This document shows positions 25,718 through 64,000 of a stretch of 64,000 nt of DNA, piece by piece. This stretch comes from Aquipluma nitroreducens (GTDB lineage: Bacteria; Bacteroidota; Bacteroidia; Bacteroidales; Prolixibacteraceae). The stretch's first letter is position 1. Each line of letters opens with the position of its first letter. Both the position numbers and the translations under genes were made by a program. A model generated the notes under the pieces. The model ran no database searches. It was given only the letters and a program-made list of their open reading frames with translations, and was not told the DNA's origin. The stretch covers positions 3,611,001-3,675,000 of the forward strand of contig NZ_AP018694.1 of assembly GCF_009689585.1 (NCBI RefSeq), given 5' to 3'.

Positions 25718-25750
25718 GTTTGATGTAACTTCTAACTAAATCTTCATATC

Positions 25751-26935: not shown

Positions 26936-26942
26936 AGAAATA

Positions 26943-26974: not shown

Positions 26975-26999
26975 TTGGGGTTGCTGTTTAAACTTAAAT

Positions 27000-34678: not shown

Positions 34679-34699
34679 TGGATTTGATTTTTATTAGCA

Positions 34700-35317
34700 T
34701 TAAATTTTAATCCCCATGAAACTCATGAACGCAAGCCCCATTAAACCGGTAACAATAAATGTAATACCAATACCTCTGAGCGGTGCAGGTATTTTATTGT
34801 ATTTTAGTTTTTCGCGTATTGCTGCCAGCGATACAATGGCAAGAGCCCAGCCTATGCCGGATCCCAATCCCCAAGACAAAACTTCGCCGATGTTTTTATA
34901 TTCCCGTTGTTCCATAAATAGGGAACCACCCAAAATAGCACAGTTTACAGCAATAAGCGGAAGGAAAATACCGAGGGAATTATAAAGTGCAGGAGTGAAT
35001 TTTTCAATGAGCATTTCAACCAACTGAGTCATTGCCGCAATGGTTGCGATGAAAACCATGAAACTCAGGAATGATAAATCAACATCTTTAAAACTTTCGC
35101 CAAGCCATACCAATGCCCCGGGTTTCATTACATATTTCAAAAGTAAGTAGTTTACGGGAACAGTAATAACTTGTACAAAAATTACTGCGATACCAAGTCC
35201 TAAAGAAGTTTTTACAGTTTTTGAGACGGCCAGATAGGAGCACATCCCCAAAAACAGGGCGAAGATCATATTGTCGATAAATATCGCCCGAATAAATATA
35301 TTTATAATGCTTTGCAT
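34700..35317 (-). CDS. nqrE: Na+-NQR subunit E
   Basis: A 205-aa protein with six membrane spans and the NqrE/RnfA pattern (FLGMCSYLAVSKTVKTSLGLG near residue 23; AVNCAILGG near 120). Each half of the symmetric NqrD/NqrE pair supplies cysteines to an intramembrane Fe centre; the Cys in LGMCSYLA and NCAILGG fit this. Confidence 0.97.
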   Translation of the reverse strand: MQSIINIFIRAIFIDNMIFALFLGMCSYLAVSKTVKTSLGLGIAVIFVQVITVPVNYLLLKYVMKPGALVWLGESFKDVDLSFLSFMVFIATIAAMTQLVEMLIEKFTPALYNSLGIFLPLIAVNCAILGGSLFMEQREYKNIGEVLSWGLGSGIGWALAIVSLAAIREKLKYNKIPAPLRGIGITFIVTGLMGLAFMSFMGIKI

Positions 35318-35338
35318 AATCGATTGGTTTAGTAGGGA

Positions 35339-35971
35339 TTAATCTTTTTCAATCAGTTCTTTATTAAAACTGCGCTGTATCCAGATGATAACTCCAACAA
35401 GGATGAGCGCTGCGGTAGGCATAATCATCATCCCATTGTTAATGTATCCTGTGTCATAAAATGACTTGGGTATAACGTTGAATCCAAGAACGGCACCCGA
35501 ACCAAAAAGCTCCCTGATAAAGCCAATTGCAATTAAAATCATGGCATATCCAAGACCATTGCCAATCCCGTCGACAAACGATGGCCAAGGTTTGTTGCCC
35601 ATCGCAAATGCTTCCAGACGACCCATAATAATACAATTCGTAATGATCAACCCGACATAAACCGAAAGTTGTTTGCTAACGTCGTAAACAAATGCCCGAA
35701 GTAACTGATCGACCAGAATAACCATCGTGGCTACAACAACCAGCTGAACGATGATGCGGATTCGTGGAGGAATATAATTACGCATGGCTGAAATCACCAG
35801 ATTGGAGATAGCCGTAACTACCATTACCGATAGTCCCATAACAATTGCCGGTTTTAATTTAACCGTTACTGCCAATGCCGAACAAATACCCAGAATCTGT
35901 ACAGTAATCGGATTCTGTAAATTCAGCGGGTTAGACAGCAGTTTGAAATTTTTTGAAGAGAATATGCTCAT
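35339..35971 (-). CDS. nqrD: Na+-NQR subunit D
   Basis: A 210-aa protein with six spans, homologous to NqrE/RnfE. It has the paired Cys motifs LGICSALAVT near residue 30 and ITNCIIMGRLEAFAM near 112. It forms the membrane core with NqrE and carries the intramembrane iron centre. Gaps to its neighbours are 12 and 21 bases. Confidence 0.97.
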   Translation of the reverse strand: MSIFSSKNFKLLSNPLNLQNPITVQILGICSALAVTVKLKPAIVMGLSVMVVTAISNLVISAMRNYIPPRIRIIVQLVVVATMVILVDQLLRAFVYDVSKQLSVYVGLIITNCIIMGRLEAFAMGNKPWPSFVDGIGNGLGYAMILIAIGFIRELFGSGAVLGFNVIPKSFYDTGYINNGMMIMPTAALILVGVIIWIQRSFNKELIEKD

Positions 35972-35983
35972 TGCTATCGGATT

Positions 35984-36688
35984 TTATTGACGGTTTTTAA
36001 TGAAATATGTTTTATACTGAACCAGGCACGAATCAAGCATGGCCTGTAGTCCTTTCGAGGTAATGGTTCCTCCGGAAATAGCATCCACAGCATGCGGATC
36101 ATCTTTTTTAGCTCCGCCTTTTTCTACCTGAATGGATACAAAATCAGTTGAATCTTTAAAAAGTGTTTTTCCCATGAATGGCTCCTGAAATCCTTTGGTT
36201 GCGATTTCAGCGCCAAGACCAGGAGTTTCACCCTGGTGGTCGTAGGTTACGCCATATATCGTGTTCATGTCTGGTTTTACAGAAACGTAACCCCAAATCG
36301 GACCCCAAAGTCCTTTACCTCTTACCGGCAATGAATAGGCCTTGGATTGATCATCGAGCGTGCCAACGAAAACCGGAAGCAATCTTTGTGATGCAGCTTT
36401 TTCAAGCTCGGTTTTCAAGTCAACATCAAAAGCCACGACTCCATCCTGCTTTTCTCCTTTATTGTTGATCACATAACTGTCGGTAATGTATTTGGCATAA
36501 AGATCAACCGCATTTTTTGTTGTCGATTCGATTCGCAGGGAAGCCAGAATGTTCTGTTTCTTCTCCACTTCAATGTTTTTATCCTGAAACGGTTTCAATT
36601 GCATTGCTGCCATTGAGAGAAGCAACGCTACAAGAACAACCATTACAGTGGAAAAGATAAAAATATAAGTATTACTAAAGTTCTTCAT
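35984..36688 (-). CDS. nqrC: Na+-NQR subunit C
   Basis: A 234-aa subunit with one N-terminal span and a periplasmic FMN domain. The covalent-FMN motif is SGGTIT (residues 205-210), in which Thr210 would carry FMN; the family usually has SGATxT, so an Ala to Gly change is present but the acceptor Thr is kept. The gene is in the normal operon position. Confidence 0.96.
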   Translation of the reverse strand: MKNFSNTYIFIFSTVMVVLVALLLSMAAMQLKPFQDKNIEVEKKQNILASLRIESTTKNAVDLYAKYITDSYVINNKGEKQDGVVAFDVDLKTELEKAASQRLLPVFVGTLDDQSKAYSLPVRGKGLWGPIWGYVSVKPDMNTIYGVTYDHQGETPGLGAEIATKGFQEPFMGKTLFKDSTDFVSIQVEKGGAKKDDPHAVDAISGGTITSKGLQAMLDSCLVQYKTYFIKNRQ

Positions 36689-36699
36689 GTTTTTCCTTT

Positions 36700-37863
36700 T
36701 TATGCGTTTGCTTTCACTTTGGCTCTTTTTAACCGGCGTTTAATATGCCCTTCAACAACGAAATAATCGATCAGCGGAGACCAAACATTCATCAGCAGAA
36801 TGGCAAGCATCATTCCTTCAGGATAAGCCGGATTGAATATTCGAATCAGGACGACTAACACCCCGATCAAAAAACCGTAAATCCATTTCCCTTTTTCGGT
36901 ATGCGATGCAGTAACCGGATCGGTAGCCATAAAAACTGCACCAAAAGCAAAGCCACCCATAACTAAGTGATAGTAAGCCGGAAGTTCCATGTAAGCATTT
37001 AATGGCAGCAAGTTGCATAGAAATCCCATACTAAGTGTTCCGAGTACAACCGAAAGCATAATTTTCCAACTTCCGATACCGGTGAAAATTAGGATTGCAG
37101 CACCAATAAGTACGGCAATTGTTGAAGTTTCGCCAATCGAACCGGGAATGAATCCCATAAACATATCGTGGAAGGAGGCCATTTTAGACGCTGCTCCCTG
37201 TCCGATTTGGGCAAGTGGGGTAGCTCCTGAAAAGCCATCAATAGGTACTTTGTTTGGAAGATCATAAATCCATACTGAATCGCCTGACATTTGTGAGGGA
37301 TAGGCAAAGAAGAGAAACGCACGGGCAAGCAAGGCAACATTCATGATGTTATAGCCGGTACCTCCAAATATTTCTTTACCAAAAATTACTGCAAAAGCCA
37401 CTGCAAGGGCAAGCATCCAGAGTGGAATGTTTACCGGCATGATCAACGGAATCAGAATACCTGTTACCAAATATCCTTCGTTTACCTCGTGGCCACGGAT
37501 TTGAGCCGCAATAAATTCTATTCCCAGTCCAACTCCATAGGAAACTACCAGAAGTGGAATTAATTTCAGGAATCCAAAGATGAAATTATCGATTATACCT
37601 CTTTCAATACCAAATGCAAGTCCATTTTGGTAGCCGATATTCCAGCTTCCGAACAACATCGCCGGAACCAATGCCAGAATCACTACGGTCATTGTACGTT
37701 TTAGATCAATTGCATCGTGAATGTGGACTCCCGTTTGGGAAGTGTGATTGGGTGTGAACAAGAACGTTTCGATTGCACCAAAAGTCGATCCGAGTTTGGC
37801 AAACTTACCGCCGGGACTGAAAAGCGGTTTCTTTTTATCTATGTAGTTTCTGAGTGATTTCAT
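36700..37863 (-). CDS. nqrB: Na+-NQR subunit B
   Basis: A 387-aa polytopic subunit with the covalent-FMN motif FSGATPLAQIG (the acceptor is the Thr) near residue 215 and the Na+/quinone-site membrane helices. The N-terminal segment LFSPGGKFAKLGSTFGAIET is typical. Motifs and length agree with the family. Confidence 0.97.
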   Translation of the reverse strand: MKSLRNYIDKKKPLFSPGGKFAKLGSTFGAIETFLFTPNHTSQTGVHIHDAIDLKRTMTVVILALVPAMLFGSWNIGYQNGLAFGIERGIIDNFIFGFLKLIPLLVVSYGVGLGIEFIAAQIRGHEVNEGYLVTGILIPLIMPVNIPLWMLALAVAFAVIFGKEIFGGTGYNIMNVALLARAFLFFAYPSQMSGDSVWIYDLPNKVPIDGFSGATPLAQIGQGAASKMASFHDMFMGFIPGSIGETSTIAVLIGAAILIFTGIGSWKIMLSVVLGTLSMGFLCNLLPLNAYMELPAYYHLVMGGFAFGAVFMATDPVTASHTEKGKWIYGFLIGVLVVLIRIFNPAYPEGMMLAILLMNVWSPLIDYFVVEGHIKRRLKRAKVKANA

Positions 37864-37889
37864 TGATATAGTATAACTTAAATTTCTTG

Positions 37890-39245
37890 TTAATTACCCA
37901 GTTCTTTAATCATTACGCTTATTCCATCACGCAAAATCCGCTGAACTTCGATTTTTGAAGTGCAAACATATTCGCATAACGCAAGGTCTTCTTCAATAAC
38001 TTCATAAATGCCCAATTGCTCCATTTTGTCAATGTCGTTGGCAATAATGGCTTTCAATAGAAATACAGGAAGAATATCCATCGGGAGAACTTTCTCGTAT
38101 TGACCGGTAACAACATATGCCCGTTCTTCTCCGTTCAGGTTCGTGTCGGCTTTGTAAACCTTTTTTGGAGTCAACCACGAAAAGTACGATCGTGAAATAC
38201 TGAATTTATTTAATCGAGGCATTGCCCAACCTAAAAATTCAAAGTAATCACCTTCGGGAATGACAGTTATTTGCTGGTCGTAAAATCCAAGATAATCATC
38301 AGTTTCAGTTCTTTTGCCAGTCAGTACATTGCCCGAAATATACCGTTCTTTAACTTCCTGCCTGGTGGCCTTTTTCAATATTTCCGAAAGGCAAATTCCA
38401 TGAACAACTTTAATGTATTTTGGAGCAGTAACTTCGGAACCCGTAAGTGCAATGATTTTCGAGAAATCGACCTTCCCTGTTTCAAACAACCGACCGATAT
38501 ACAGAACTTCCTGCGGATTAATGGTCCAAATCAGATCGCCCTTGTTAATCGGACAAACATGATGGATTTGAATACCTACATTTCCTGCCGGATGCGGCCC
38601 GGAGAACTGGTTGATCACAATGTTTTTGATGCCCGAAAAGAAACCGTTCGCTTGATCAGGACGAATCCCGATTTGAATTTTACCATCGGTTAGTTTGGAG
38701 AGTGCATTAATCCCAGTTTGAAAAGCTGATGTCTGGCCTTCCAGAATGAATTCGTAATCAGGGGCAAGTGGAGCTGAATCGAATCCTGAGATGAAAATAT
38801 GAAGCGGCGAGCTGTCCGGTCTGGCAACAGTTCCATATGGACGTTGTTTCAAAAAGGGCCACATCCCACTAGCTTTTAATTGCTCTTTGATTTCCTCTCG
38901 CGAAAGCTTCAACGGATCGGCCTTTACAAACTCAACACAATCGTTTTTCCCATCTGCGTTGACGACAATTTCGAGTACTTTTCTTCGTTCGCCCCTGTTG
39001 ATTGCTAAAGCTTCCCCACTAACAGGAGAAGTAAATAAAATTTCCGGATTGGATTTGTCAAAAAATAAAGGCTCGCCAGCTTTTACGAGCTGTCCGGCCT
39101 TTACCAGTATTTTTGGCATGAGTCCGGGGAAGTCAGTTGGCTTAATAGCAACCTTGACTGCTGCGACATGAGTCCCCAAAACTTTTTCGGCATCCCCTTT
39201 CAAACGAATGTTTAATCCACGCTTTAAATTGATAACCTTTGACAT
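37890..39245 (-). CDS. nqrA: Na+-NQR subunit A
   Basis: A 451-aa peripheral subunit that contributes to the quinone site. The N-terminal barrel-sandwich region is recognisable (LKRGLNIRLKGDAEK), as are RPYGTVARPDSSPLHIFISG and LFLTG-like segments. It is the first gene of the operon. The 187 bases upstream, shared with the divergent plug-protein gene, are AT-rich and should hold both promoters; a TAAGTTTA near 39318 on the minus strand is a possible -7. Confidence 0.97.
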   Translation of the reverse strand: MSKVINLKRGLNIRLKGDAEKVLGTHVAAVKVAIKPTDFPGLMPKILVKAGQLVKAGEPLFFDKSNPEILFTSPVSGEALAINRGERRKVLEIVVNADGKNDCVEFVKADPLKLSREEIKEQLKASGMWPFLKQRPYGTVARPDSSPLHIFISGFDSAPLAPDYEFILEGQTSAFQTGINALSKLTDGKIQIGIRPDQANGFFSGIKNIVINQFSGPHPAGNVGIQIHHVCPINKGDLIWTINPQEVLYIGRLFETGKVDFSKIIALTGSEVTAPKYIKVVHGICLSEILKKATRQEVKERYISGNVLTGKRTETDDYLGFYDQQITVIPEGDYFEFLGWAMPRLNKFSISRSYFSWLTPKKVYKADTNLNGEERAYVVTGQYEKVLPMDILPVFLLKAIIANDIDKMEQLGIYEVIEEDLALCEYVCTSKIEVQRILRDGISVMIKELGN

Positions 39246-50541: not shown

Positions 50542-52185
50542 CTAAGCTTGCTTCTGAAGTATCATTCCCATACGGGCTAATGCCAGATCGAAAGTTGGTA
50601 CGATATTGTTTGGGCCAATTAATGCCGGAACGCCTCCTTTTTCAAGTTCTTCAAATACCTCAGGCTGAACTCCCGAGAGAATAATTTGTATCCGTCTTGA
50701 TTTCAGATCCTTGATGGTTGCTTTCAGGTTTCGGAGGCCGGTACCATCGATGAACGGAACATGCCGCATTCGGATAATGACCACTTTCGAAGTGTGACTA
50801 ATGTCTTTCAGTGTTTCTTCGTAACGGCGTGCGGCTGCAAAAAAGAATGGCCCGCTGATTTCAAAAATTTCAACTCCTTTCGGGATGTCGGCATAATTTT
50901 CCAAAGTATCCGATTCGGTTTCCAGCGGAATTACCTTGCTCAGGTTCGACATGCGCTGCATAAACAATAATGACGATAGTACAACGCCAACTTCAATGGC
51001 AACAGTTAAATCGACAAATACAGTTAAAATAAACGTGCTGAGAAGTATAAAGATGTCGTATTTGTGACCTTTCAGAATTGAGTAGAACGACTTCATTTCG
51101 CTCATGTTGTAGGAAACAACGATCAGAATTCCGGCCAGACATGGCATTGGAATCAATAACGCCCATTTCCCGAAAACCAACATGATTAATAATAGCGTTA
51201 CTGCGTGAATAATACCTGCGATTGGTGTGCGTCCGTTATTTTTGACATTTGTCGCAGTTCGTGCAATGGCTCCGGTAGCAGGAATTCCGCCAAAGAATGG
51301 TGTGACAATATTGGCAACTCCCTGTGCAATCAACTCGGTATTCGAGCGGTGATTACTACCGATCATCCCATCGGCAACAACAGCCGAGAGCAGCGACTCA
51401 ATAGCCCCAAGCAAGGCAATGGTTAATGCAGGTTGCATATATTGTCCCAACTGATCGAAATGGATTGATGGGATTGTAATCGCGAATTTATTGGGAATAG
51501 AGCCAAATACACTTTCGATCGTATTCACCTGAAGACCAAATACGGCAACGATCGCCGTCATCACAATAATGGCGATGAACGATCCTGGAACTTTAGGGAT
51601 TAGTCGTCCGGAAAATACAGTTATGATAATGGTTCCAATCGTAATTAATACAGCCGAAAGATTGAAATTCTGCATCTGGTGAAAATAAATTTCCCATTTG
51701 GCTACGAATTCAGCAGGAAGCTTGTCGATGGGTAAACCCATTGCATCTTTGATTTGGGTGGAAAAGATGACCAATGCAATACCGCTCGTGAAGCCAACAA
51801 TCAACGGATGTGGGAAAAATTTCAGGATAGATCCCAATCGCAGTAATCCAAAAGTGATTAGCATTATTCCGGCCATGATGGTCGAAATAATCAGTCCATC
51901 GAACCCGTATTTTTGGAGAATTCCGTAAACAATAACGATAAAAGCTCCGGTAGGACCGCCAATCTGAACACGGCTTCCGCCCAGTAATGAGATGATAAAC
52001 CCGGCAACCACTGCAGTAATGATGCCCTTTTCAGGAGAAACCCCGGAAGCTACGGCAAAAGCAATCGCTAATGGCAACGCTACAATTCCAACGATAATTC
52101 CGGCAAAAATGTCGTTGGTTATATTTTTTGTCAGCAGGCCCTTCTTAAACAGGCTCCATGTTTTAGGAAGAAAAATTGGCTCCAT
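50542..52185 (-). CDS. SulP-family anion transporter with STAS domain
   Basis: A 547-aa permease with about 12-14 spans. The Sulp signature IVALPLAIAFAVASGVSPE (about residues 34-52), GGPTGAFIVIVYGI and PLIVGFTSGIALVIF are present. A cytosolic STAS domain occupies about residues 440-547 (VVIIRMRHVPFIDGTGL). The family carries sulfate, bicarbonate or other anions; with no carbonic anhydrase or sulfate genes nearby the substrate is not decided. Confidence 0.93.
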   Translation of the reverse strand: MEPIFLPKTWSLFKKGLLTKNITNDIFAGIIVGIVALPLAIAFAVASGVSPEKGIITAVVAGFIISLLGGSRVQIGGPTGAFIVIVYGILQKYGFDGLIISTIMAGIMLITFGLLRLGSILKFFPHPLIVGFTSGIALVIFSTQIKDAMGLPIDKLPAEFVAKWEIYFHQMQNFNLSAVLITIGTIIITVFSGRLIPKVPGSFIAIIVMTAIVAVFGLQVNTIESVFGSIPNKFAITIPSIHFDQLGQYMQPALTIALLGAIESLLSAVVADGMIGSNHRSNTELIAQGVANIVTPFFGGIPATGAIARTATNVKNNGRTPIAGIIHAVTLLLIMLVFGKWALLIPMPCLAGILIVVSYNMSEMKSFYSILKGHKYDIFILLSTFILTVFVDLTVAIEVGVVLSSLLFMQRMSNLSKVIPLETESDTLENYADIPKGVEIFEISGPFFFAAARRYEETLKDISHTSKVVIIRMRHVPFIDGTGLRNLKATIKDLKSRRIQIILSGVQPEVFEELEKGGVPALIGPNNIVPTFDLALARMGMILQKQA

Positions 52186-53880: not shown

Positions 53881-54585
53881 TCAATAGAATTTCGACATTT
53901 CGATCAGTGCCTTTGTTTTTAATACGCTGATTCTCTTTCCATTGATCCCGATAATTTCTTCTTTTTTGAATTCCTGAAGCAGTCGAACCAGGGTTTCTGT
54001 TGCCGTTCCAACCATATTGGCCAAATCTTCGCGCGACAATACGATCTCAACCAAATCTGATTTGTCTTTTCTTCTGAATTTTTCTGAAAGGATCAAAAGA
54101 GTTAGTGCCAATCGTTCCCGAACGGACATGTGGGCAAAGATCATTACGCTGTTTACCATTACGCCAAACTCATGGCTTAAGCTGGATAAAAGGCAGCTCA
54201 TCAGGGCGTTCGATTCATTTGTGGCTTTTAGAAATACTTCTTTTGGTAAAAATCCCAAACTCGAAGTTTCAACGGCTGCAATTGAATCGGGATAAGGTTC
54301 GTTACACAATAAAGCCGAGTATCCAAGCAATTCACCTTCCGAGCAAAGCGATAAAATGTGTTCTTTTCCGGCATGATCGGTTTTGTATTTTTTCACCAAT
54401 CCTTCTTTTAAGTAATAAATTCCGGCTGAATACGAACCTTCCAGAAATATGGGCTGTCCTTTCTTGTAGGTTCGGTCAATCATCTGGCTTTCCAGGAACA
54501 GCCTTAAATCGGATGGGATATTTTTAAAGATTGAATCACTCTTCGACGTAAATTTTTCAAGGTGAATTAGATCGTTTGTTTCCAT
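53881..54585 (-). CDS. Crp/Fnr-family transcriptional regulator
   Basis: A 234-aa regulator with an N-terminal cyclic-nucleotide-binding-like barrel (about residues 18-130, GQPIFLEGSYSAGIYYLKEG) and a C-terminal Crp-type helix-turn-helix (LSREDLANMVGTATETLVRL, about 180-199). The N-terminal four-cysteine cluster of true FNR is missing, so direct [4Fe-4S] oxygen sensing by that mechanism is unlikely. I chose the ATG at 54585; a TTG at 54594 is in frame. It is divergent from the Ehr-like operon and is its most likely local regulator. Confidence 0.9.
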   Translation of the reverse strand: METNDLIHLEKFTSKSDSIFKNIPSDLRLFLESQMIDRTYKKGQPIFLEGSYSAGIYYLKEGLVKKYKTDHAGKEHILSLCSEGELLGYSALLCNEPYPDSIAAVETSSLGFLPKEVFLKATNESNALMSCLLSSLSHEFGVMVNSVMIFAHMSVRERLALTLLILSEKFRRKDKSDLVEIVLSREDLANMVGTATETLVRLLQEFKKEEIIGINGKRISVLKTKALIEMSKFY

Positions 54586-54632
54586 GTTCTTCAATTAATT
54601 GATCAAATATAGGGATAAAGTCAACGTATTAC

Positions 54633-54731: not shown

Positions 54732-56738
54732 ATGATGGAGATGGCAGGACTGTTGAATTTATCGTGGTGCGCAACGCTTGTTGCAATTATTGCCTTGTGT
54801 TTTGTTTCCACCAGGTTCAAATCATATCTTGCTGCATCGGCAGTTATTGTCAATGCAATCGTTACCAGCCTTCTGGCCATTGGCGCACTGAATGGCGAAA
54901 TCAAAGAGCTTATTTTTCAGGGGAATATATTTTGGGGCGATATTCTTGTTCGCATTGATGGGTTGTCGGCCTGGTTCATTTTAATTGTCAATCTTACTTC
55001 TGTAACCGGTGTCATTTATGGCATTGGATATTTAAAGCCGTATGTAAATTCTGCTCCGAAACTGGCTTTCCACTGGATTTTGTTTGTCATTTTTCACCTT
55101 TCGATGGTTTGGGTGTGCATGATACAACATTCGCTCGCTTTTCTGGTTGCCTGGGAGGTGATGTCTTTATCTTCGATGTTGCTGGTTATTTTCGACTACG
55201 ACAAGCCCAAAACAATAAAAGCCGGAATCAATTATCTGGTTCAAATGCACATCAGTGTTACGTTTTTAACCATTGGTTTTATCTGGGTCTATTTTCAAAC
55301 TGGCTCATTCAGCTTCGATGCTTTTCAAACATACTTTGGGGCAAACAGTAATGTTTGGTTGTTCCTGATTTTCTTTGTTGGGTTTGGAATCAAAGCCGGT
55401 TTCATTCCTTTGCATAGCTGGTTGCCTCATGCACATCCAGCAGCACCATCGCATGTTTCTGGTGTAATGTCTGGGGTGATTGTCAAATTGGGTATCTATG
55501 GGATTTTCAGAATTATTTATTTTCTTAAGGCTGATTTTTTGTTGCTGGGCGAAATTGTGATCACGATTTCCGTTTTGACCGGAGTATATGGAATATTGAA
55601 TGCCGCTGTTCATCGTGATTTCAAGCGGATGCTGGCTTATTGTACCATCGAAAATATCGGGATTATTGGCATTTGTATTGGTCTCGGATTGATGGGAATG
55701 GGCAATGGCTCCGCGATTTTGTATTATCTGGGTTTTGGCGGAGCACTGTTGCATGTTCTAAATCACTCGCTGTTTAAATCCTTGCTGTTTTATTCAGCAG
55801 GCTCGATTTACCAGCAAACACATACCCGCGACATGGATAAATTGGGCGGTTTAATCAGGCAAATGCCGAAAACGGCTGTCCTTTTCCTGTTTGGCGCAAT
55901 TGCCATTGGCGGATTGCCGCCTTTCAACGGGTTTGTTTCCGAATTTATTCTCTATAGCGGACTTTTGGAGGGATTGAAATTCAGTAATATAAGCCAAATT
56001 AGTTTATTGGTTGTCACATTGGGCGGATTGAGTATTATTGGCGGCATTTCGGTTCTTACATTCACCAAAACATTTGGAACAATTTTCCTTGGAAACTCAA
56101 GAAAACAGTTCACCCATCAACCAGTTGAAGTCTCTTCGATGATGTTGGTCCCTCAATATTTGATTGTTTTAGTCATGTTGAGTGTCGCTTTTCTGCCGCA
56201 ATTTTATCTGAATACGATTTTCAATCTGTTGGGGAATTTGGGCAAAGCTATGGCAATAGTCACACCGTCGGGACTAACTGCATATTCTGAAAGTATCACA
56301 AATATAAATCTCTATTCGATTCTGTTTATTGCAATTGTAGCTGCCAGTTGGGGCTTGCGTGCGCTTATAATGAAAGATAAATTGGTGAAGGTAGAGCCAA
56401 CCTGGGGATGCGCTTATGTTGCTCCAAACAGTTCGATGCAATACACGGGCAAATCGTTTTCAAAATCGCTGGGTAAAATTTTTGGTTTCCTTTTGGTTGA
56501 AGAAAAGAAATACAAAGAATTGGAAGCCGGAGAGATATTTCCGGAGAGCCGAAAATATGTATCACATTATCAGGATTTTTTCGAATTCCGGATTATAAAT
56601 TACATCACTCATCATCTGGTTTATGCCGCAAATTATTTTAAATTTATTCAGAATGGGCGGGTGCAATCGTATGTTTGGTATGGGATTATATTTATGGTAG
56701 CTATTTTTATGTTGACCGTTTTAAATGTATTGAAATGA
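54732..56738 (+). CDS. hyfB: HyfB-like ion-translocating membrane subunit, copy 1
   Basis: A 668-aa polytopic protein of the NuoL/MrpA antiporter family, HyfB/HycC branch. It has the conserved Glu of the VAWEVMSLSSMLL helix, the broken-helix Lys region GFGIKAGFIPLHSWLPHAHPA, and HDFKRMLAYCTIENIG-like and LNHSLFKSLLFYSAG segments. The C-terminal VEPTWGCAY motif is typical of HyfB. It would move H+ or Na+ coupled to electron transfer. Its stop overlaps the start of the second copy by four bases. Confidence 0.92.
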   Translation: MMEMAGLLNLSWCATLVAIIALCFVSTRFKSYLAASAVIVNAIVTSLLAIGALNGEIKELIFQGNIFWGDILVRIDGLSAWFILIVNLTSVTGVIYGIGYLKPYVNSAPKLAFHWILFVIFHLSMVWVCMIQHSLAFLVAWEVMSLSSMLLVIFDYDKPKTIKAGINYLVQMHISVTFLTIGFIWVYFQTGSFSFDAFQTYFGANSNVWLFLIFFVGFGIKAGFIPLHSWLPHAHPAAPSHVSGVMSGVIVKLGIYGIFRIIYFLKADFLLLGEIVITISVLTGVYGILNAAVHRDFKRMLAYCTIENIGIIGICIGLGLMGMGNGSAILYYLGFGGALLHVLNHSLFKSLLFYSAGSIYQQTHTRDMDKLGGLIRQMPKTAVLFLFGAIAIGGLPPFNGFVSEFILYSGLLEGLKFSNISQISLLVVTLGGLSIIGGISVLTFTKTFGTIFLGNSRKQFTHQPVEVSSMMLVPQYLIVLVMLSVAFLPQFYLNTIFNLLGNLGKAMAIVTPSGLTAYSESITNINLYSILFIAIVAASWGLRALIMKDKLVKVEPTWGCAYVAPNSSMQYTGKSFSKSLGKIFGFLLVEEKKYKELEAGEIFPESRKYVSHYQDFFEFRIINYITHHLVYAANYFKFIQNGRVQSYVWYGIIFMVAIFMLTVLNVLK

Positions 56739-58762
56739 GCTTGATAAGTGCGTTCATTGCAGTGCCGGTTTTGGCAATACTACTCATTCCTTTTCTGAAT
56801 GTAAAAGGGAAGGGGATTGTATTGTTTGCCGCTATTGTCGTGAATGCTTTTCTTTCTGGTTACCTTGCTCTTCAACCTTTGGATGGACAATTTTTAGAGT
56901 TTTCATTTCCCGGAAGTTTAGTGACCGGTCCGGTGAATCTTCGGATAGACGCTCTTTCCGGATGGTTTATTCTGATTATCAATTTCATTTTTGTAACGGG
57001 CAGTTTCTACGGACTTTTCTATATGCAAGCTTACCAGAAGCAGACGAATAATATTACACTGCATAGCATTGTTTTCGTTTTACTGCATACGGCCTTGATC
57101 AGTCTTTGCACGGTACAAAACAGCTTGGTTTTTCTTGTAGTCTGGGAAATTATGGCGCTTTCGGCGTTTATCGCTGTCATTTTCGAACATGGCAAGATGG
57201 CGACTTTAAGAGCCGGAATGAATTACCTGATTCATTCGCATGTCTCGATTTTATTCCTGATGTTCGGCTTTATTTGGGTAGCGCTAAAAACCGGCAGTTA
57301 CGATTTTAACTCGATAACAACTTATACGTCTCAAAATTCAGGAGCTACCGGGCTTGTCTTGTTTCTTTGTTTTTTTATAGGGTTTGGCATCAAGGCCGGG
57401 TTTGTTCCTTTTCATACATGGCTACCGTATGCGCATCCGGCAGCGCCTGCTCATGTTTCCGGAGTTATGTCAGGCGTAATGATTAAAATCGGAATTTTTG
57501 GAATCTTCCGGGTGATCACCTTGATCAAAGCTGATTATTATACGATTGGCCTTGTGATTATATCCTTTTCAGTCATTTCTGGTTTGTACGGAGTGATGCT
57601 GGCTATTGTGCAACACAACCTCAAAAAGTTGCTGGCCTATCATAGCATCGAAAACATTGGAATTATCGGAATGGGAATTGGCATTGGTTGTATCGGGTTA
57701 GGAACAGGCAATTATTTGCTTGCTTCGCTTGGGTTTGCAGGTGGATTGCTCCACACCTTAAATCACTCGCTGTTCAAATCGCTTTTGTTTTTTACCGCCG
57801 GAAATGTTTATCAGGCAACACATACGGTTCATATTGATCATTTGGGAGGCTTGATTAAAAGAATGCCACAGACTACTATACTTTTTCTGATTGCGGCCAT
57901 TGCTATTTCGGGAATTCCGCCGTTTAATGGTTTTATTTCGGAGTTTATCATTTACAGCGGATTCTATTACTGGATGCAGGGATCAATGATTGGTCCGTTA
58001 ATGGCCATCATATTTTCAGTACTGGCCTTGGTGCTGATTGGAGGTTTGGCGCTGTTGTGTTTTACCAAAGCATTTGGAATTGTTTTCTTGGGCAATCCCC
58101 GTCAGAAACTCGACCATGAAGTAAAGGAAGTTCCTTTTTTGCAACTTTTACCGCTTTACCTGATCGCGTTTCTGATTGTGTTCATCGGCGTATTTCCCCA
58201 GATTTTTATGCATGCGCTATCACAGCCTGTGAGCCTTTTGGCAGGCCTTCCGGCAATTTCAGATATGCCTTTCCCTGAAAAAACTACTGAACTTCTCCAA
58301 CCGGTTACCTGGGGCATCTGGATGTTTATCCTGATCAGTCTGGCAGTTTTTGGGTTCAGGAAACTGGTCACACAAAACCGAAAAGCTTCAGTCGAACCGA
58401 CCTGGGGTTGCGGATATATCGCGCCAACCGCAAAACTGCAATACACTGCCGGATCGTTCGTCAGGCCCTACAGCAAGCTGTTTCGTCCATTTTTGCTTTC
58501 GCACAAAACCCAAAAAGATGTTGAGGGCATTTTCCCTTCAGGGGGATCGTATGAAACAAATAGTTACGACCGGATTGAAAAATATCTGGTTGATAACCCA
58601 ATAGCAGCCTATAAATCATTGTTGGGAAGATTTCTCTTTCTCCAGAATGGGAAGCTGCAATTCTATATTCTCTACGGAATTATTTTTATCGTTTCGGTGA
58701 TCTGTATTCCGTTGTTTTACGACCAAATTGTATTATTCATCGATTTTATAAAGCAGATATAA
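56735..58762 (+). CDS. hyfB: HyfB-like ion-translocating membrane subunit, copy 2
   Basis: A 675-aa paralogue of the preceding protein with the same key segments: VVWEIMALSAFIAVI, GFGIKAGFVPFHTWLPYAHPA, NLKKLLAYHSIENIG, LNHSLFKSLLFFTAGN and VEPTWGCGY. I chose the ATG at 56735, which overlaps the previous stop (ATGA); a start at 56675 would extend it inside the first gene. Two HyfB-type subunits plus HyfF imply more than one ion channel in the complex. Confidence 0.92.
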   Translation: MSLISAFIAVPVLAILLIPFLNVKGKGIVLFAAIVVNAFLSGYLALQPLDGQFLEFSFPGSLVTGPVNLRIDALSGWFILIINFIFVTGSFYGLFYMQAYQKQTNNITLHSIVFVLLHTALISLCTVQNSLVFLVVWEIMALSAFIAVIFEHGKMATLRAGMNYLIHSHVSILFLMFGFIWVALKTGSYDFNSITTYTSQNSGATGLVLFLCFFIGFGIKAGFVPFHTWLPYAHPAAPAHVSGVMSGVMIKIGIFGIFRVITLIKADYYTIGLVIISFSVISGLYGVMLAIVQHNLKKLLAYHSIENIGIIGMGIGIGCIGLGTGNYLLASLGFAGGLLHTLNHSLFKSLLFFTAGNVYQATHTVHIDHLGGLIKRMPQTTILFLIAAIAISGIPPFNGFISEFIIYSGFYYWMQGSMIGPLMAIIFSVLALVLIGGLALLCFTKAFGIVFLGNPRQKLDHEVKEVPFLQLLPLYLIAFLIVFIGVFPQIFMHALSQPVSLLAGLPAISDMPFPEKTTELLQPVTWGIWMFILISLAVFGFRKLVTQNRKASVEPTWGCGYIAPTAKLQYTAGSFVRPYSKLFRPFLLSHKTQKDVEGIFPSGGSYETNSYDRIEKYLVDNPIAAYKSLLGRFLFLQNGKLQFYILYGIIFIVSVICIPLFYDQIVLFIDFIKQI

Positions 58763-58764
58763 CT

Positions 58765-59670
58765 ATGCTGAGTTTAATTCTCATTCTTATAGCAGCAGCC
58801 TTTTTCACAGGGGTAATTATCCGTGTAAAAAGTATGGCGTCAGGCCGCAAAGGGCCTGGTATTTTACAGCCGCTGTTTGATGTTTTCAGGCTCTTTAAGA
58901 AAGGAGTTGTGTACAGCGAGACAACCAGTTTTGTATTTCAGATTGCGCCTACAATCTATTTTGCGTCGGTAGTGATGGCTATGCTGGTAGTTCCGTTCGG
59001 TCAGTCGAAAGGAATTTTAAGTTTCGACGGCGATTTTATCTTTTTCGCATACATATTGGCATTAGGCAAGTTTCTTAGTATTATTTCGGCCATGGATACG
59101 GGTAGTAGTTTCGAAGGAATGGGAGCCAGCCGTGAAGCGCTTTATTCGATGTTTGCCGAACCAGCTTTTTTTATCCTGATGGGTTCGCTGGCGTTGCTTA
59201 CCGGACATACAAATTTTCAGGAAATGTTTTCTGCTTTGCATATTGGCTCATACATCAGCTATGCGCTGGCAATACTTGGCACTTTCGTTTTGATGATGAT
59301 TGCGATGGTAGAGAACAGCCGAATGCCGATTGACGACCCGAAAACACACCTCGAATTGACCATGGTTCATGAAGTGATGATCCTCGATAACAGCGGGTTT
59401 GACCTGGGTTTGATCCTGACTGCCGGATACCTGAAATTCGCTATTTACGGGGCTTTGGTCGTCAACCTGTTTATCGGAGTGTTTCCTTTACAGTATTCAA
59501 TCCCAATGTTTTTTGTCATTCAATTTGTACTGGCTTCCGGAGTTGGATTCATCGAATCGTTTATGGCTCGTTTCCGCATGAGTCACAATGCCCAGTTTAT
59601 TTTCGTATTGACGTCAGTAAGCCTGCTTATTTTCTTTGGCGCTTTGCTGATTTTAGGAAAGTTTGTTTAA
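58765..59670 (+). CDS. hyfC: HyfC-like (NuoH-type) membrane subunit
   Basis: A 301-aa protein with eight or so spans, of the NuoH/HycD family that anchors the hydrophilic arm to the membrane arm. Signature segments are GRKGPGILQPLFDVFRLFKK (residues about 31-50), FEGMGASREALYSMFAEPAF and VENSRMPIDDPKTHLELTM with conserved acidic residues. It starts two bases after the second HyfB gene. Confidence 0.93.
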   Translation: MLSLILILIAAAFFTGVIIRVKSMASGRKGPGILQPLFDVFRLFKKGVVYSETTSFVFQIAPTIYFASVVMAMLVVPFGQSKGILSFDGDFIFFAYILALGKFLSIISAMDTGSSFEGMGASREALYSMFAEPAFFILMGSLALLTGHTNFQEMFSALHIGSYISYALAILGTFVLMMIAMVENSRMPIDDPKTHLELTMVHEVMILDNSGFDLGLILTAGYLKFAIYGALVVNLFIGVFPLQYSIPMFFVIQFVLASGVGFIESFMARFRMSHNAQFIFVLTSVSLLIFFGALLILGKFV

Positions 59671-59688
59671 ACCGTAAATTCCGAACAA

Positions 59689-60321
59689 ATGATAGATGTA
59701 CTGCTTATTACCTTCATCATCACCCTGTTTTATATGGCAATTGCCAACCGGATGCTGACTTATTTGAAAGTGCTGGCTTTTCAGGGAGTATTGCTGTTTG
59801 TAGTTGTCTTTCTTCAACTAAAAGAAATCAACACGGTAAACCTGGCTTTAATCTTACTCGAAACCATTGTTTTTAAGTCGGTTGCGGTGCCGCTATTTAT
59901 GGCTTACGTACTGAAACGAAATAACATTACCCGTGAGTCGGAGCCTTTTTTGCCAAATTTTGTCTCTTTAATTATTACCACATTCATTGTGGTTGTCACT
60001 ATTTTGCTGGCCAATCAGGTGAAAGACACCAAGTTGGATAAAATATTCTTTGTGGTGGCTTTGTCGTCGCTTTTTACGGGTTTATATTTTATAGCCACCC
60101 GACGAAAAATCATTACTCATGTCATTGGTTACCTGATTATTGAAAATGGAGTTTTTGTGTTATCGCTGGCTGTTGGTAACGAAATGCCCATGTTGGTGAA
60201 CCTAGGTATCATGCTCGATATTTTTGCCAGCGTATTGATTTTGGGCATCTTCCTGAATAAAATTGGCGACGTATTTAAAGATGTAGATGTGGATCAGTTA
60301 AGTAATTTGAAGGACTATTAA
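59689..60321 (+). CDS. hyfE: HyfE-like membrane subunit
   Basis: A 210-aa protein with about seven spans. The C-terminal half resembles NuoK (GYLIIENGVFVLSLAVG, then MLVNLGIMLDIFASVLILGI), as in HyfE of hydrogenase-4. It separates this operon type from Hyc, which lacks HyfE. It is 18 bases after hyfC and 12 bases before hyfF. Confidence 0.88.
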   Translation: MIDVLLITFIITLFYMAIANRMLTYLKVLAFQGVLLFVVVFLQLKEINTVNLALILLETIVFKSVAVPLFMAYVLKRNNITRESEPFLPNFVSLIITTFIVVVTILLANQVKDTKLDKIFFVVALSSLFTGLYFIATRRKIITHVIGYLIIENGVFVLSLAVGNEMPMLVNLGIMLDIFASVLILGIFLNKIGDVFKDVDVDQLSNLKDY

Positions 60322-60333
60322 TTCTAAAAAAAC

Positions 60334-61761
60334 ATGATAGGAATATATCTGATAGGAGCTTTGTCAATAGCGCTTGCCTTATTTCTAAACAAGAGCAAGA
60401 CGCTAACATTCGTATTACTGGGATTATTTCTGATCCTTCAGGGAATGTTAACTATTCATGCATATACTAATTTTCATTCTACCGAATGGAGTTATTTTAC
60501 ATACGATTCATTGGCGGTTCTGCTGTTGTTCACCTTGGGAATAATCACCATTCCGGCGATAATTCACAGCCATATTTATCTCCAAGACCAACCTGCGCCG
60601 CAGAGTTCAAGATCTATTTATTATGCTTCAATTGTGTTACTGATATCTGCCATCAGTGCAGGTTACCTGTCGAACCACATTGCTGTAACCTGGATTTTTA
60701 CTGAAATCACTACTTTAAGCGCATCTGCTCTAATTTATCATCACCGAAATAAACTGGCGCTTGAAGGAACCTGGAAATATGTCTTTATTTGTGCAATCAG
60801 TATCACATTTGTGTTCATCGGCATTTTGTTTTTAAGTATGTCGTTTTCAAATGCCGGATCCGATGATTTGTCGTTTAAAAATCTGTTAGCCAATAGTTCA
60901 CATCTCAATCCTTTCTGGCTGAGACTTGCGTTTCTATTTATTTTCACCGGATTCACTGTTAAACTTGGGCTGGTTCCCATGTTTACCGCTGGTGTTGATG
61001 CTAAAGACAAAGCTCCGGCTCCGGCAGGTGCATTACTTTCGAGCATATTGATGAATCTTGGATTTGTTGGTGTTTTCCGTTTTTACATTGTTGTTGCAAA
61101 TACGCCACTTCACCATTGGGCGAATCTGGTTATTGGCATTGCAGCCTTTCTATCAGTATTTGTTGCCACTGTGTATATGATCAAAGTGAAGAACATCAAG
61201 CGAATGATGGCCTATTCGAGCATTGAACACATGGGATTGGTTATGCTTGGAGTTGCCGCTGGAGGAATTGGCTATTATGCTGCGATTCTTCACATTATAC
61301 TTCATGCCTTTGTAAAATCAAGCTTGTTTTTCCAATTTACGCAATTGTATCGGGTGTTTCAGAGCAAAAGCATTTACCATGTAGGTAATTATTTCAAGTA
61401 CAATACTGCTGGCGCGATGGTTCTTTTGTTAGGTTTTATCAGCGCAACCGCCATGCCGCCTTCAGGGTTGTTTGTAAGCGAGTTCCTAATTTTTCGTTCG
61501 ATGTTCGAAGCGCATCAGATCATTCTTTTGATAGCAGTTTTGATTTTGCTCACTATGATTATCTATGCTTTTGGGAAAAACATTATGAAGATATTATTTA
61601 TTCCAGCTGTTGGATTTGACGATTCGCATGTTCCGGTTATCAGTTCATGGGAATCATCCAGTCAGTTTATATTACTGGCACTTGCTGTGTATTTGGGCTT
61701 GAATCCTCCGGCTGAATTAGTGCAGTTGATCAAAGAAAGTGTCATGTTGTTACCAAATTAA
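60334..61761 (+). CDS. hyfF: HyfF-like (NuoN/MrpD-type) ion-translocating subunit
   Basis: A 475-aa antiporter-like protein. It has the trans-membrane Glu helix TWIFTEITTLSASALIY, the Lys region FTVKLGLVPMFTAGVDAKDKAPAPA, VKNIKRMMAYSSIEHMGLV and the GLFVSEFLIFRSM ending. It is the third antiporter-like subunit in the operon. Gaps to its neighbours are small (12 and 6 bases). Confidence 0.92.
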   Translation: MIGIYLIGALSIALALFLNKSKTLTFVLLGLFLILQGMLTIHAYTNFHSTEWSYFTYDSLAVLLLFTLGIITIPAIIHSHIYLQDQPAPQSSRSIYYASIVLLISAISAGYLSNHIAVTWIFTEITTLSASALIYHHRNKLALEGTWKYVFICAISITFVFIGILFLSMSFSNAGSDDLSFKNLLANSSHLNPFWLRLAFLFIFTGFTVKLGLVPMFTAGVDAKDKAPAPAGALLSSILMNLGFVGVFRFYIVVANTPLHHWANLVIGIAAFLSVFVATVYMIKVKNIKRMMAYSSIEHMGLVMLGVAAGGIGYYAAILHIILHAFVKSSLFFQFTQLYRVFQSKSIYHVGNYFKYNTAGAMVLLLGFISATAMPPSGLFVSEFLIFRSMFEAHQIILLIAVLILLTMIIYAFGKNIMKILFIPAVGFDDSHVPVISSWESSSQFILLALAVYLGLNPPAELVQLIKESVMLLPN

Positions 61762-61767
61762 TCGACA

Positions 61768-63267
61768 ATGATTTACACAACGATAATTAACAATCAGACG
61801 ATTTCGATTTCAGACATTCCTGAAATGAATTATAACGAATTTATCGACCTGAATACCGGGTTTTTAACAAATTCTCCGGAAAAGCATTGCGTGAATTATT
61901 TCGGATATCCGGTTAGTAATCAGATTCGGTTGATTTGCTGTATTGCCGACGATAACACGCATCAAATTTACCTTTCGTCGTGTTTTGTGAAATCAGGAGA
62001 CCAACTGGATTCGTTCACCGCCCGGAACTTCAACTTCGAAAAGTTTGAGCGCGAGATTCACGAGAATTTTGGTGTAGACTACAACGATCATCCTTGGTTA
62101 AAGCCAGTCCGGTACGCCAAAAACCGTTTCGATCCATCCCAAACCATTGCCAATTATCCATTCTTTTCCATCGAGAGCGATGAATTGCACGAAGTTGGTG
62201 TGGGTCCAATTCATGCCGGAATCATCGAGCCGGGGCATTTCAGGTTCATTTGTAACGGCGAGCAGATTCTCCATCTCGAAATCCAGTTGGGTTATCAGCA
62301 TCGCGGAATCGAACAACAATTTTTGGCAAAGAAAAAGCTGCTTCAACGAACTACCATTGCTGAATCAATAGCTGGCGATACTGTTGTTGGACATACCACC
62401 GCCTTTTCGCATGTTTGGGAAAGCCTTTGCGGATTTCAACCTTCACACGACATGGAATATGCCCGGACACTTGCCCTCGAATTGGAGCGAATGGCAGTGC
62501 ATACAGGTGATCTGAGCGCGGTTTGTACCGACATTGCTTACCAGTTAGGCAGTGCGGTGTTTGGTCGTTTACGCACGCCGATCATCAATTTTATGCAGGA
62601 GTGGGGCGGTAACCGTTTATCCAAAGGATTGATCAGACCTGGCCGAAATCAATTTCCGTTTACTCCTGAATTGGCTCAACGATTGGCCGGAATATTGGAT
62701 GTTTACGAACCCGACTTTCTGGAAATGAATGAGCAATTGTTCCAACTGCCCAGCGCCCTTTCGCGTTTTGAGCGTACCGGCGTGGTTTCGTATGAAGATG
62801 TTTTATCGATTGGAACGGTTGGAATGGCTGCCCGCATGAGTGGACTGAGCCGTGATATTCGTCAATCGCATCCGTTTGGTCTTTATCCGGAAATGAATCA
62901 CGAACCCATCATCAAACACCATGGCGACGTGTATTCTAGGGTTCAAATCCGTAAGGCAGAAGTCAAACAATCCATGCAATACATTCGGAATCTGATTCAA
63001 AATGTTCCTGAAAGTTCAGAAAACGAACCTGTATTCCAGAGTCCGAAGCCCAATTCGTTTACCCTTTCGCTGGTCGAAGGTTGGCGTGGCGAAATTTGCC
63101 ATTGCGCCATCACTGACGAACAGGGCGAATTAGCACATTATAAAGTGAAAGACCCGTCGTTTCACAACTGGCTGGCATTGGCATTGGCGGTGAGGAATAA
63201 TGAGATTTCAGATTTCCCGATTTGTAACAAGAGTTTTAACCTGTCATATTCAGGTCACGATTTGTAA
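61768..63267 (+). CDS. hyfG: HyfG-like large subunit without NiFe-site cysteines
   Basis: A 499-aa protein joining a NuoC-like domain (about residues 1-125; FEREIHENFGVDYNDHPWLKP) to a NuoD/NiFe-large-subunit-like domain (VGPIHAGIIEPGHFRF near 145, LGYQHRGIEQ near 174). The N-terminal Ni-binding motif RxCGxC is replaced by AESIAGDTVVGH (198-209) and the C-terminal DPCxxC by DFPICNKSF (482-490), so at most one of four cysteines remains. It cannot hold a normal Ni-Fe centre. It fits the Ehr group of hydrogenase-related complexes. Confidence 0.9.
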   Translation: MIYTTIINNQTISISDIPEMNYNEFIDLNTGFLTNSPEKHCVNYFGYPVSNQIRLICCIADDNTHQIYLSSCFVKSGDQLDSFTARNFNFEKFEREIHENFGVDYNDHPWLKPVRYAKNRFDPSQTIANYPFFSIESDELHEVGVGPIHAGIIEPGHFRFICNGEQILHLEIQLGYQHRGIEQQFLAKKKLLQRTTIAESIAGDTVVGHTTAFSHVWESLCGFQPSHDMEYARTLALELERMAVHTGDLSAVCTDIAYQLGSAVFGRLRTPIINFMQEWGGNRLSKGLIRPGRNQFPFTPELAQRLAGILDVYEPDFLEMNEQLFQLPSALSRFERTGVVSYEDVLSIGTVGMAARMSGLSRDIRQSHPFGLYPEMNHEPIIKHHGDVYSRVQIRKAEVKQSMQYIRNLIQNVPESSENEPVFQSPKPNSFTLSLVEGWRGEICHCAITDEQGELAHYKVKDPSFHNWLALALAVRNNEISDFPICNKSFNLSYSGHDL

Positions 63268-63281
63268 AAAAGAGTTCCTGA

Positions 63282-63349
63282 GCGACAAAGCGACAAAGTA
63301 CCAAAGTAAAAAACATCTCAGGTACTTAGGTACTCAGGTGCTTTGTGGC
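63282..63349. repeat. Imperfect palindromic repeat inside the Ehr-like operon
   Basis: The 26-base left arm 63282-63307 (built from GCGACAAA units) matches the inverted right arm 63324-63349 at 20 of 26 positions, leaving a 16-base loop. It fills the only sizeable gap in the operon (120 bases), between the large- and small-subunit genes. No T-run follows. It is probably a REP-like repeat that could alter subunit stoichiometry. Confidence 0.6.
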
Positions 63350-63387
63350 TGATAATGAATATATTTCGAATTTATAAATGACACACC

Positions 63388-64000
63388 ATGTTCGATAATG
63401 TAAAAATAGTCTATCATCAAGGCAAGCAATTTATTACGGATACGGCAAATGCCAAGGTTCCCGGAATTTTCAGAGGTCGTCCGGTGATTAGTTTCGAAAA
63501 GGTAAACGAAGCTGAGTTGGTCGATTTGTGTCCTGTTGATGCCATTTCGGGGAATCCGGTAAGCATCGACCTGGGAAAATGTACCTTTTGTGGCGAGTGT
63601 GCCAAACAATTTCCGAATAAGATCCGGTTCACGACCGACTATAAAATATCAACCAACGACCGCAATCGGTTGATCGTGAAAGAAGGCGATGAAGAACCGA
63701 TTGAAGTTGATCCCGAAAAGGTACGCAATGAAATTCGCCGGATTTTTGGCCGTTCATTAAAGCTGCGACAAGTAAGTGCTGGTGGCGATAACAGTTGCGA
63801 AATGGAACTCAATGCCGCCAACAATGTGCAGTTCGACATCAGTCGATATGGAATTGACTTTGTGGCTTCGCCGCGCCATGCCGATGGAATTGTGATTACC
63901 GGCCCCATCACTGAAAACATGGCTGAACCGTTGCAGATTTGTTACGATGCAATTCCCGAACCCAAAATCATTGTACTGGTTGGTACCGATGCCATTAGCG
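63388..64000 (+). CDS. hyfI: Ferredoxin / HyfI-like small subunit fusion (partial)
   Basis: 204 residues are visible before the window ends. Residues 1-80 form a ferredoxin-like domain: Cys48 (LCPVDAI) plus Cys65, Cys68 and Cys71 (CTFCGEC), enough for one [4Fe-4S] cluster; the second cluster's cysteines are absent. From about residue 125 it is NuoB/HycG-like (FDISRYGIDFVASPRHADGI). The proximal-cluster CNGC motif reads DNSC (134-137) and the GACA motif reads GTDA (199-202), so two of the expected cysteines are Asp. The N-terminus is a fusion of HyfH-like and HyfI-like parts. Confidence 0.85.
   Translation, partial: MFDNVKIVYHQGKQFITDTANAKVPGIFRGRPVISFEKVNEAELVDLCPVDAISGNPVSIDLGKCTFCGECAKQFPNKIRFTTDYKISTNDRNRLIVKEGDEEPIEVDPEKVRNEIRRIFGRSLKLRQVSAGGDNSCEMELNAANNVQFDISRYGIDFVASPRHADGIVITGPITENMAEPLQICYDAIPEPKIIVLVGTDAIS

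Follow-up and report, generated by a model that had tools for sequence, protein, structure and literature searches.

An Ehr-like operon of Aquipluma nitroreducens lacking NiFe ligands belongs to a clade that has also lost the proximal-cluster ligands

We analyzed a 64,000-nucleotide stretch of the Aquipluma nitroreducens genome (hereafter, the window; contig NZ_AP018694.1, positions 3,611,001 to 3,675,000), in which seven closely packed plus-strand genes occupy positions 54732-64000 in the order HyfB1-B2-C-E-F-G-I (Table 1). They encode a relative of complex I and group 4 [NiFe] hydrogenases of the energy-converting hydrogenase-related (Ehr) type, and both of its catalytic subunits have lost metal ligands: all four NiFe cysteines are gone from HyfG, and HyfI retains only one of the four cysteines that ligate the proximal (N2-type) cluster. 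That Ehr complexes can be devoid of NiFe ligands was known already; new here is a clade that is also without the proximal-cluster ligands, and in the open-licence literature searched we found no other Ehr clade of this kind. We postulate that the complex is a complex-I-like ion translocator cut off from its usual electron wire and driven by ion exchange or by a non-redox event in its cavity, with a structural or sensory role for the remaining cluster. We put the probability of this reading at about 0.5.

In sequence, HyfI resembles the subunits that carry the proximal cluster in Mbh, complex I, and formate hydrogenlyase (FHL). The modeled fold of a HyfI relative (predicted local distance difference test score of 89) likewise matches FHL HycG (7z0s_G) and MbhJ (6cfw_J). 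The structure models are of relatives, namely, the fused HyfG/HyfI of locus L123 and a Chryseolinea HyfI, and two parts of the L123 model (residues 131-178 and 478-561), which take in the cavity and the spacer, are of low quality. At the four proximal-cluster positions, HyfI carries D, C, D, and N. The ferredoxin-like domain keeps the full ligand set for one ferredoxin-type cluster, which by its numbering corresponds to the complex I cluster nearer N2. All four of these cysteines occur in 156 of 157 HyfI sequences, the exception being that of the second Variovorax operon, which has no ferredoxin domain. The Variovorax plasmid in question (L026) hosts two Ehr-type operons 3.4 kb apart (9845-17129 and 20541-27725), the HyfI of one being fused to a ferredoxin domain and that of the other not.

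Across all searches, we collected 156 unique HyfI sequences, which fall into 116 with D-x-D-N or a close variant at the proximal positions (D-type) and 40 with all four cysteines (CCCC, or C-type). None is a hybrid that retains part of the three replaced cysteines. Among the D-type sequences, 103 read DCDN, 4 DADN, 3 DNDN, and 2 DGDN, with one each of DCEN, DSDD, DSDN, and ADDN. Thus, D201 is replaced by E once, N231 by D once, and D134 by A once, and 12 of the 116 have A, D, G, N, or S in place of C137; the ADDN case, locus L160, has its aspartate at the second-cysteine position, 137. In a HyfI tree from which the ligand columns were left out (81 rows, with all 40 CCCC sequences and 41 D-type ones out of 116), the D-type sequences occupy one side of a single branch, which implies one change (Shimodaira-Hasegawa-like approximate likelihood ratio test [SH-aLRT] support, 97). 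Judged from these sequences, loss of the proximal ligands is a clade trait, fixed in a large clade. The ratio of 116 to 40 is not a frequency, because the D-type sequences came mostly from D-type queries (best 80 of 577 confirmed).

In a phylum sample (E value, 1e-20), 17 of 395 genomes were positive, 2 with D-type and 15 with CCCC sequences, and in the order sample at the same threshold, 37 of 149 were positive, with all 30 loci examined being D-type. In the family of genome G009 (1e-60), 17 of 79 genomes were positive, and only G009 was D-type. The protein of L173, a C-type locus whose HyfI has an intact set of proximal cysteines and, as judged by eye, the two ferredoxin-type sets as well, found matches in 20 of 197 genomes in the class of G101 and in 13 of 345 in the window's class (1e-50). 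The D-type operons of G009 (L010 and L085) lie outside the window's class, and horizontal transfer is possible there. A D-type operon was also seen in a metagenome-assembled genome (MAG) labeled Phycisphaerae (L166), where either horizontal transfer or wrong binning is possible.

At the two sites where E. coli HycE and HyfG have C-G-I-C and C-Y-S-C, the HyfG of the window carries A-G-D-T and S-Y-S-G, and the protein ends in -GHDL without a C-terminal extension. In addition, I153 and G203 align to H38 and Y87 of Thermus thermophilus NuoD (HMMER alignment to 2fug_4), the quinone-site His and Tyr; both the NiFe site and the quinone ligands known from NuoD are therefore missing from HyfG. Its best match among solved structures is FHL subunit 5 (7z0s_E, 9.6e-34), as is that of the model of a HyfG relative. 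What replaces the metal site is strongly conserved. G203 is found in 91 and D204 in all of 92 D-type rows (among which the window protein and two places, L074/L124 and L077/L136, stand twice), both occur in 19 of 19 C-type rows, and S493, Y494, G496, and D498 are invariant in both sets. The mean entropy of the cavity motifs is 0.24 bits in D-type rows, compared to 1.29 for the rest of the NuoD-like domain, and 0.37 compared to 1.35 in C-type rows, a contrast inflated by our having picked the blocks after the alignment was known.

The HyfG tree (65 rows, several of them long-branched) placed the cysteine-free proteins in one group (SH-aLRT, 99) that excludes E. coli HycE/HyfG and NuoD. This group takes in plasmid-borne proteins of Variovorax, Allomeiothermus, Azospirillum, Rhodococcus, and Rhizobium, for which the name Ehr was given in this analysis. 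Its references were E. coli HycE/HyfG and the two NuoD of this genome, with no published Ehr sequences; its rows included 32 random D-type proteins, L144, L160, and the query, with the query and the protein of the second Variovorax operon each present twice. The D-type again arose by one change (support, 79), and its sister was L173. Relative to that sister, D-type HyfG has gained three cysteines: C444 (92 of 92 rows), C253 (89), and C446 (84). H40, C41, H169, W279, and others were rejected as D-type marks; they are common to the CCCC sister and therefore do not explain the loss of the proximal ligands. Similarly, residue 200 is a serine where NuoD has an arginine beside N2, and since serine also occurs in 18 of 19 C-type rows, it is unconnected with that loss.

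Neither HypD nor a PF00374 large subunit was found in the 99.7% complete, one-contig genome; the HypD search was positive in 4 of 14 genomes, E. coli included, and no search was aimed at the endopeptidase or at any further hyp gene. With no NiFe cysteines, no HypD, no PF00374, and this tree position, we reject a hydrogenase. The initial annotation had proposed from the letters of the window an Ehr-like, probably non-hydrogenase complex with metal ligands lost from both catalytic subunits, in a genome that also has NQR, and these proposals held up, as did the seven genes at the positions given for them. It had further suggested reading past base 64000 and looking for hyp and endopeptidase genes: HyfI ends there, the next gene lies on the opposite strand, and the maturation genes were followed up for HypD alone.

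The operon is also full length in most of the D-type loci. Among 99 different D-type loci, 40 contain full-length BBCEFGI and 24 full-length BCEFGI. In 33 of the other 35, the sequence starts less than 1 kb ahead of the first visible operon gene, and most of these are probably cut short for that reason. The remaining two are L149 and L137, of which L137 has a D-type CEFGI without HyfB in 2.6 kb upstream; a shorter membrane arm, or a HyfB elsewhere, is possible. An operon gene is in two frames at five loci (L087, L115, L117, L125, and L149, the gene in L149 being HyfB), and a stop falls inside the matched stretch in 2 of 37 order matches, near the end as far as visible. In L087, a MAG contig, it is HyfG that lies in two frames, with HyfI intact, and a sequencing error is possible. 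The ratio of nonsynonymous to synonymous substitution rates (dN/dS) for HyfI was 0.043-0.078 in the four of seven comparisons with finite dS, values that are rough given a high dS (1.2 to 2.3), and it indicates that HyfI is under purifying selection. HyfG gave 0.071 and 0.115 in two finite cases, the second being L087 with its gene in two frames. Finite values elsewhere were 0.054 (HyfE), 0.102 (HyfB2), 0.253 (HyfB1), and 0.172 (HyfF), the remaining pairs being saturated. In the membrane arm, E142, K221, K252, and E404 of HyfB1 (54 D-type rows) and E137, K219, K250, and E402 of HyfB2 (66 rows) are each conserved in at least 95% of the D-type rows, and acidic positions of HyfC, e.g., E132, E183, E197, E203, and E264, are conserved in D- and C-type rows alike.

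Conservation in many Bacteroidota despite both losses suggests an ion-moving machine that is no longer run by the electron route through N2. Without the usual delivery of electrons to the cavity, ion movement, if any, would be driven otherwise. We anticipate that the electron path into the catalytic cavity was removed and that H+ or Na+ would still be moved through the three antiporter-like subunits and HyfC. In place of electrons delivered by N2, the drive could be an Mrp-like ion exchange or a protonation or binding step in the HyfG/HyfI cavity that involves no redox chemistry. The D134/D201/N231 pocket would then hold a proton or a hard cation, and the ferredoxin-type cluster that is left may be structural or redox sensing and gate the machine. 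Both the driving force and the substrate are what we infer. We count in favor of this reading the D-type/CCCC split without hybrids, the one-branch tree, the low dN/dS, and the conservation of cavity and membrane arm, together with the absence of a recurrent neighbor, HypD, and PF00374. A variant of Yarrowia complex I that lacks N2 is reported to be intact in other respects and assembled but to have lost quinone reductase activity (PMC8042128).

Several points weigh on the other side. The ion, the drive, and transport itself are predictions from sequence. The [4Fe-4S] ligand set kept in nearly every HyfI suggests that some redox role remains, and a mixed-ligand or new cluster is conceivable, given C444, C253, and C446 of D-type HyfG, all missing in L173. 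The D/D/N pocket is a candidate site read from aligned residues. Gene content makes a poor match to Mrp, as HyfC, HyfG, and HyfI are present, and the N2-less complex I shows a loss and not any gain (PMC8042128). A more far-reaching version, in which the electron-exit site of the whole clade would have become a site with oxygen ligands (D134, D201, and N231) for a cation or proton and the machines would translocate ions without N2 electron flow, is one that we offer only tentatively.

The main rival is that the complex is still a redox pump with a changed route, which we consider unlikely. Here, the single ferredoxin-type cluster would pass electrons to an acceptor near HyfI/HyfG without N2, or a non-standard cluster would be formed from D134, C137, D201, and N231 or from the new HyfG cysteines. 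The near-universal ferredoxin-type cysteines and the gain of C253, C444, and C446, which L173 with its intact proximal site does not have, are consistent with such a route. However, C137 is missing in the 12 D-type sequences noted above, and its loss shows no association with the loss of C446 (Fisher p = 0.40) or of C253 (p = 1.0), a weak test in which 84 of 91 rows were readable and only 5 were without C137. Spacing also argues against it: in FHL, the relay clusters all lie within 14 Å of each other (PMC9474812), and by extension, dropping one should leave a gap of more than 14 Å. A cluster re-ligated by HyfG C253/C444/C446 and HyfI C137 was considered separately and set aside, as no linked loss was seen for C137 in the same weak test.

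Less probable again is that the HyfG cavity catalyzes a non-redox reaction coupled to ion flow, such as DAB-like handling of CO2 or bicarbonate. That the cavity motifs are nearly invariant with both metal sites gone would fit such catalysis, as would a SulP gene 2.5 kb upstream of the operon, whose close relatives stand upstream of six C-type operons. Among the other D-type loci, on the other hand, SulP occurs only at L160, and as a distant one (flanks mostly ≤10 kb). In the DAB complex, a DabA-type protein stands beside a NuoL-like protein. A Pfam scan of SulP, the Crp-like regulator, and all seven operon products (HyfI as far as the window end) found no DabA-type domain, the rest of the genome not having been searched.

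The initial annotation favored a second redox-driven ion pump, possibly ferredoxin linked, i.e., an Mbx/Ehr-type pump with a normal electron chain, and we now find this quite improbable. The overall architecture and the ferredoxin-like domain fused to HyfI speak for it, as do suggestions made in the literature for other Ehr complexes (PMC6349859). It fits poorly because the cluster between the ferredoxin domain and HyfG has lost three of four ligands, here and across the D-type sequences; in addition, no recurrent partner gene lies nearby. Ferredoxin may still meet the remaining HyfI cluster, but the known wire beyond that cluster is missing. The initial annotation had the ligand losses of both subunits in view without concluding this from them. 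Finally, a decaying operon or an assembly or alignment artefact, to which the lost metal sites and the few genes in two frames might point, has a negligible chance given the low dN/dS, full-length operons in 64 of 99 D-type loci, and the recurrence of these residues in 116 unique sequences, some of them from Chryseolinea and Arcticibacter isolates, and we reject a pseudogene.

The seven-gene operon is real and complete. The stop codon of HyfI lies 143 bases past the window end, where the genome supplies the last 47 codons and the stop, and the ATG of HyfB2 overlaps the stop of HyfB1 (ATGA). Among the NCBIfam matches listed, all seven proteins stay under the curated cut-offs, and they are therefore relatives rather than standard members of the named families. 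More specifically, HyfB1 matched the hydrogenase 4 subunit B model at 4.5e-145 and HyfB2 its model at 9.1e-148, both under cut-off, HyfF scored under the cut-offs of hydrogenase 4 subunit F models, and the HyfE match, NF008556, is a hydrogenase-4 membrane subunit model. In L182, the C-type operon is followed by another HyfG-HyfI pair with a short HyfG (BCEFGI then GI).

Table 1. Operon genes, ligand positions, and neighboring features (window coordinates unless locus L005 is named; aa, amino acids)
Feature	Position	Strand	Match or remark
HyfB1, antiporter-like membrane subunit, 668 aa	54732..56738	+	Pfam PF00361 (Proton_antipo_M) 1.6e-53; start ATG 54732, further ATG at 54735
HyfB2, second antiporter-like subunit	56735..58762	+	Pfam PF00361 (Proton_antipo_M) 3.7e-50
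HyfC, NuoH-like, joins membrane arm and hydrophilic module	58765..59670	+	Pfam PF00146 (NADHdh) 5.3e-36
HyfE, NuoK-like	59689..60321	+	NCBIfam NF008556 3.3e-20 and Pfam PF00420 6.7e-5, both under cut-off
HyfF, third antiporter-like subunit	60334..61761	+	Pfam PF00361 (Proton_antipo_M) 6.7e-42
HyfG, NuoC-like N-terminal and NuoD/NiFe-large-subunit-like domain, 499 aa	61768..63267	+	Pfam PF00346 (Complex1_49kDa) 4.9e-33
HyfG A-G-D-T (residues 202-205), in place of first NiFe C-x-x-C	62371..62382	+	alignment to 7z0s_E
HyfG S-Y-S-G-H-D-L (residues 493-499, C-terminus), in place of second NiFe C-x-x-C	63244..63264	+	alignment to 7z0s_E
HyfI, 251 aa, ferredoxin-like and NuoB-like domains fused	63388..64000, to 64143 equivalent; L005 10388-11143	+	204 in-window residues: Pfam Oxidored_q6 4.4e-12, Fer4 4e-5
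HyfI C48, C65, C68, C71, ligand set for one ferredoxin-type [4Fe-4S] cluster	63529..63600	+	
HyfI D134-N-S-C137, first two proximal positions	63787..63798	+	C-N-G-C in most C-type
HyfI D201, third proximal position	63988..63990	+	Cys in C-type
HyfI N231, fourth proximal position, past window	L005 11078-11080		
Crp/FNR-type regulator, divergent, 137 bases before HyfB1 start	53881..54594	-	Pfam
SulP transporter, upstream of operon	50542-52185	-	BicA model 2.7e-70, far under cut-off
nqrFEDCBA	33422-39245	-	

The divergent Crp/FNR-type gene is a possible regulator of the operon; a related Crp-like gene is divergent upstream in four D-type loci, the window's included. No neighbor recurred across the D-type loci, the commonest gene cluster being present in 6 of them (within 4.5 kb), in a survey that clustered genes rather than annotating them singly and had at least 1 kb upstream in 58 loci and downstream in 91. 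Among 18 C-type loci with at least 1 kb upstream, 15 have a helix-turn-helix (HTH)-EIIA gene there and 6 a SulP gene, calls that rest on Pfam for one and two C-type examples, respectively. This HTH-EIIA gene, a small HTH-phosphotransferase system EIIA fusion directly upstream of the operon in L176 (3891-4568; Pfam for L176 only) and 14 other C-type loci, was not seen in D-type loci. The window SulP scores higher with DauA and sulP models than with BicA, also under cut-off, and its closest relatives among the loci examined are those of the six C-type operons, found in other Bacteroidota genomes. Its place beside the operon is possibly a relic or a real link; as a D-type partner it is weak, since no close SulP was found in the other D-type loci examined. 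The genome also hosts two separate nuo operons outside the window (L007 and L008, by PF00346 matches); as ORFs read by eye, one has nuoEFG and the other is without them in the stretch read.

Whether electron transfer at N2 and the cavity is coupled to ion movement in the membrane arm, and in what way, is a central question for complex I. The D-type is a conserved natural machine that has kept cavity and membrane arm while lacking the N2 ligand set, which makes it a ready experiment. Ion movement by it would mean that the arm can be driven without the N2 electron step; a need for electrons would mean that there is a new route. Should the oxygen-ligand site operate without N2 electron flow, ion pumping would be separated from electron delivery within the complex I superfamily, and the conserved Ehr cavity would do chemistry or bind a ligand without electrons from N2. 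For annotation, the data are a warning against counting Ehr-like operons of Bacteroidota as hydrogenases, or simply as ferredoxin-driven pumps.

Ehr complexes are described as lacking NiFe ligands and having an unknown function (PMC6349859, PMC10284858, PMC7304191, PMC6728331, PMC5037454), and in Geobacter, Ehr proteins are reported at higher abundance on formate (PMC7894505). The operon shares with them a group 4 hydrogenase-like gene set, antiporter-like subunits, and a large subunit without NiFe ligands, which in our tree, with its few references, falls outside hydrogenases and NuoD. Beyond the NiFe loss, the D-type operon lacks the proximal-cluster ligands through which electrons would be relayed to the large subunit, often has two HyfB, and has a ferredoxin-like domain fused to HyfI, features that may set it apart from published Ehr. 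E. coli FHL-1 (Hyc) and hydrogenase 4 (Hyf) are alike in subunit types, and FHL gives the best sequence match of HyfG (7z0s_E) and the best fold matches of HyfG and HyfI relatives (7z0s_E and 7z0s_G), whereas the operon lacks the NiFe ligands, the proximal ligand set, and a HyfA/HycB or formate dehydrogenase gene, and its genome lacks a detectable HypD. Of the marks of a group 4 [NiFe] hydrogenase, i.e., two C-x-x-C pairs, HypD, and proximal [4Fe-4S] ligands, none was found.

Mrp Na+/H+ antiporters have the seven-gene mrpA-G set and no hydrophilic catalytic subunits. The antiporter-like subunits and the proposed non-redox drive are alike, whereas the operon has HyfC, HyfG, and HyfI, which Mrp lacks, so that the two differ in gene content. 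Respiratory complex I shares the HyfG/HyfI fold and the antiporter-like and NuoH-like subunits; unlike it, the operon has no N2 ligand set, no Tyr/His at the quinone positions, and no NuoE/F/G. The C-type relatives of Bacteroidota (L173 and others) share the BCEFGI order, a mostly fused HyfI, and the same HyfG cavity motifs and, unlike the D-type, retain all four proximal cysteines.

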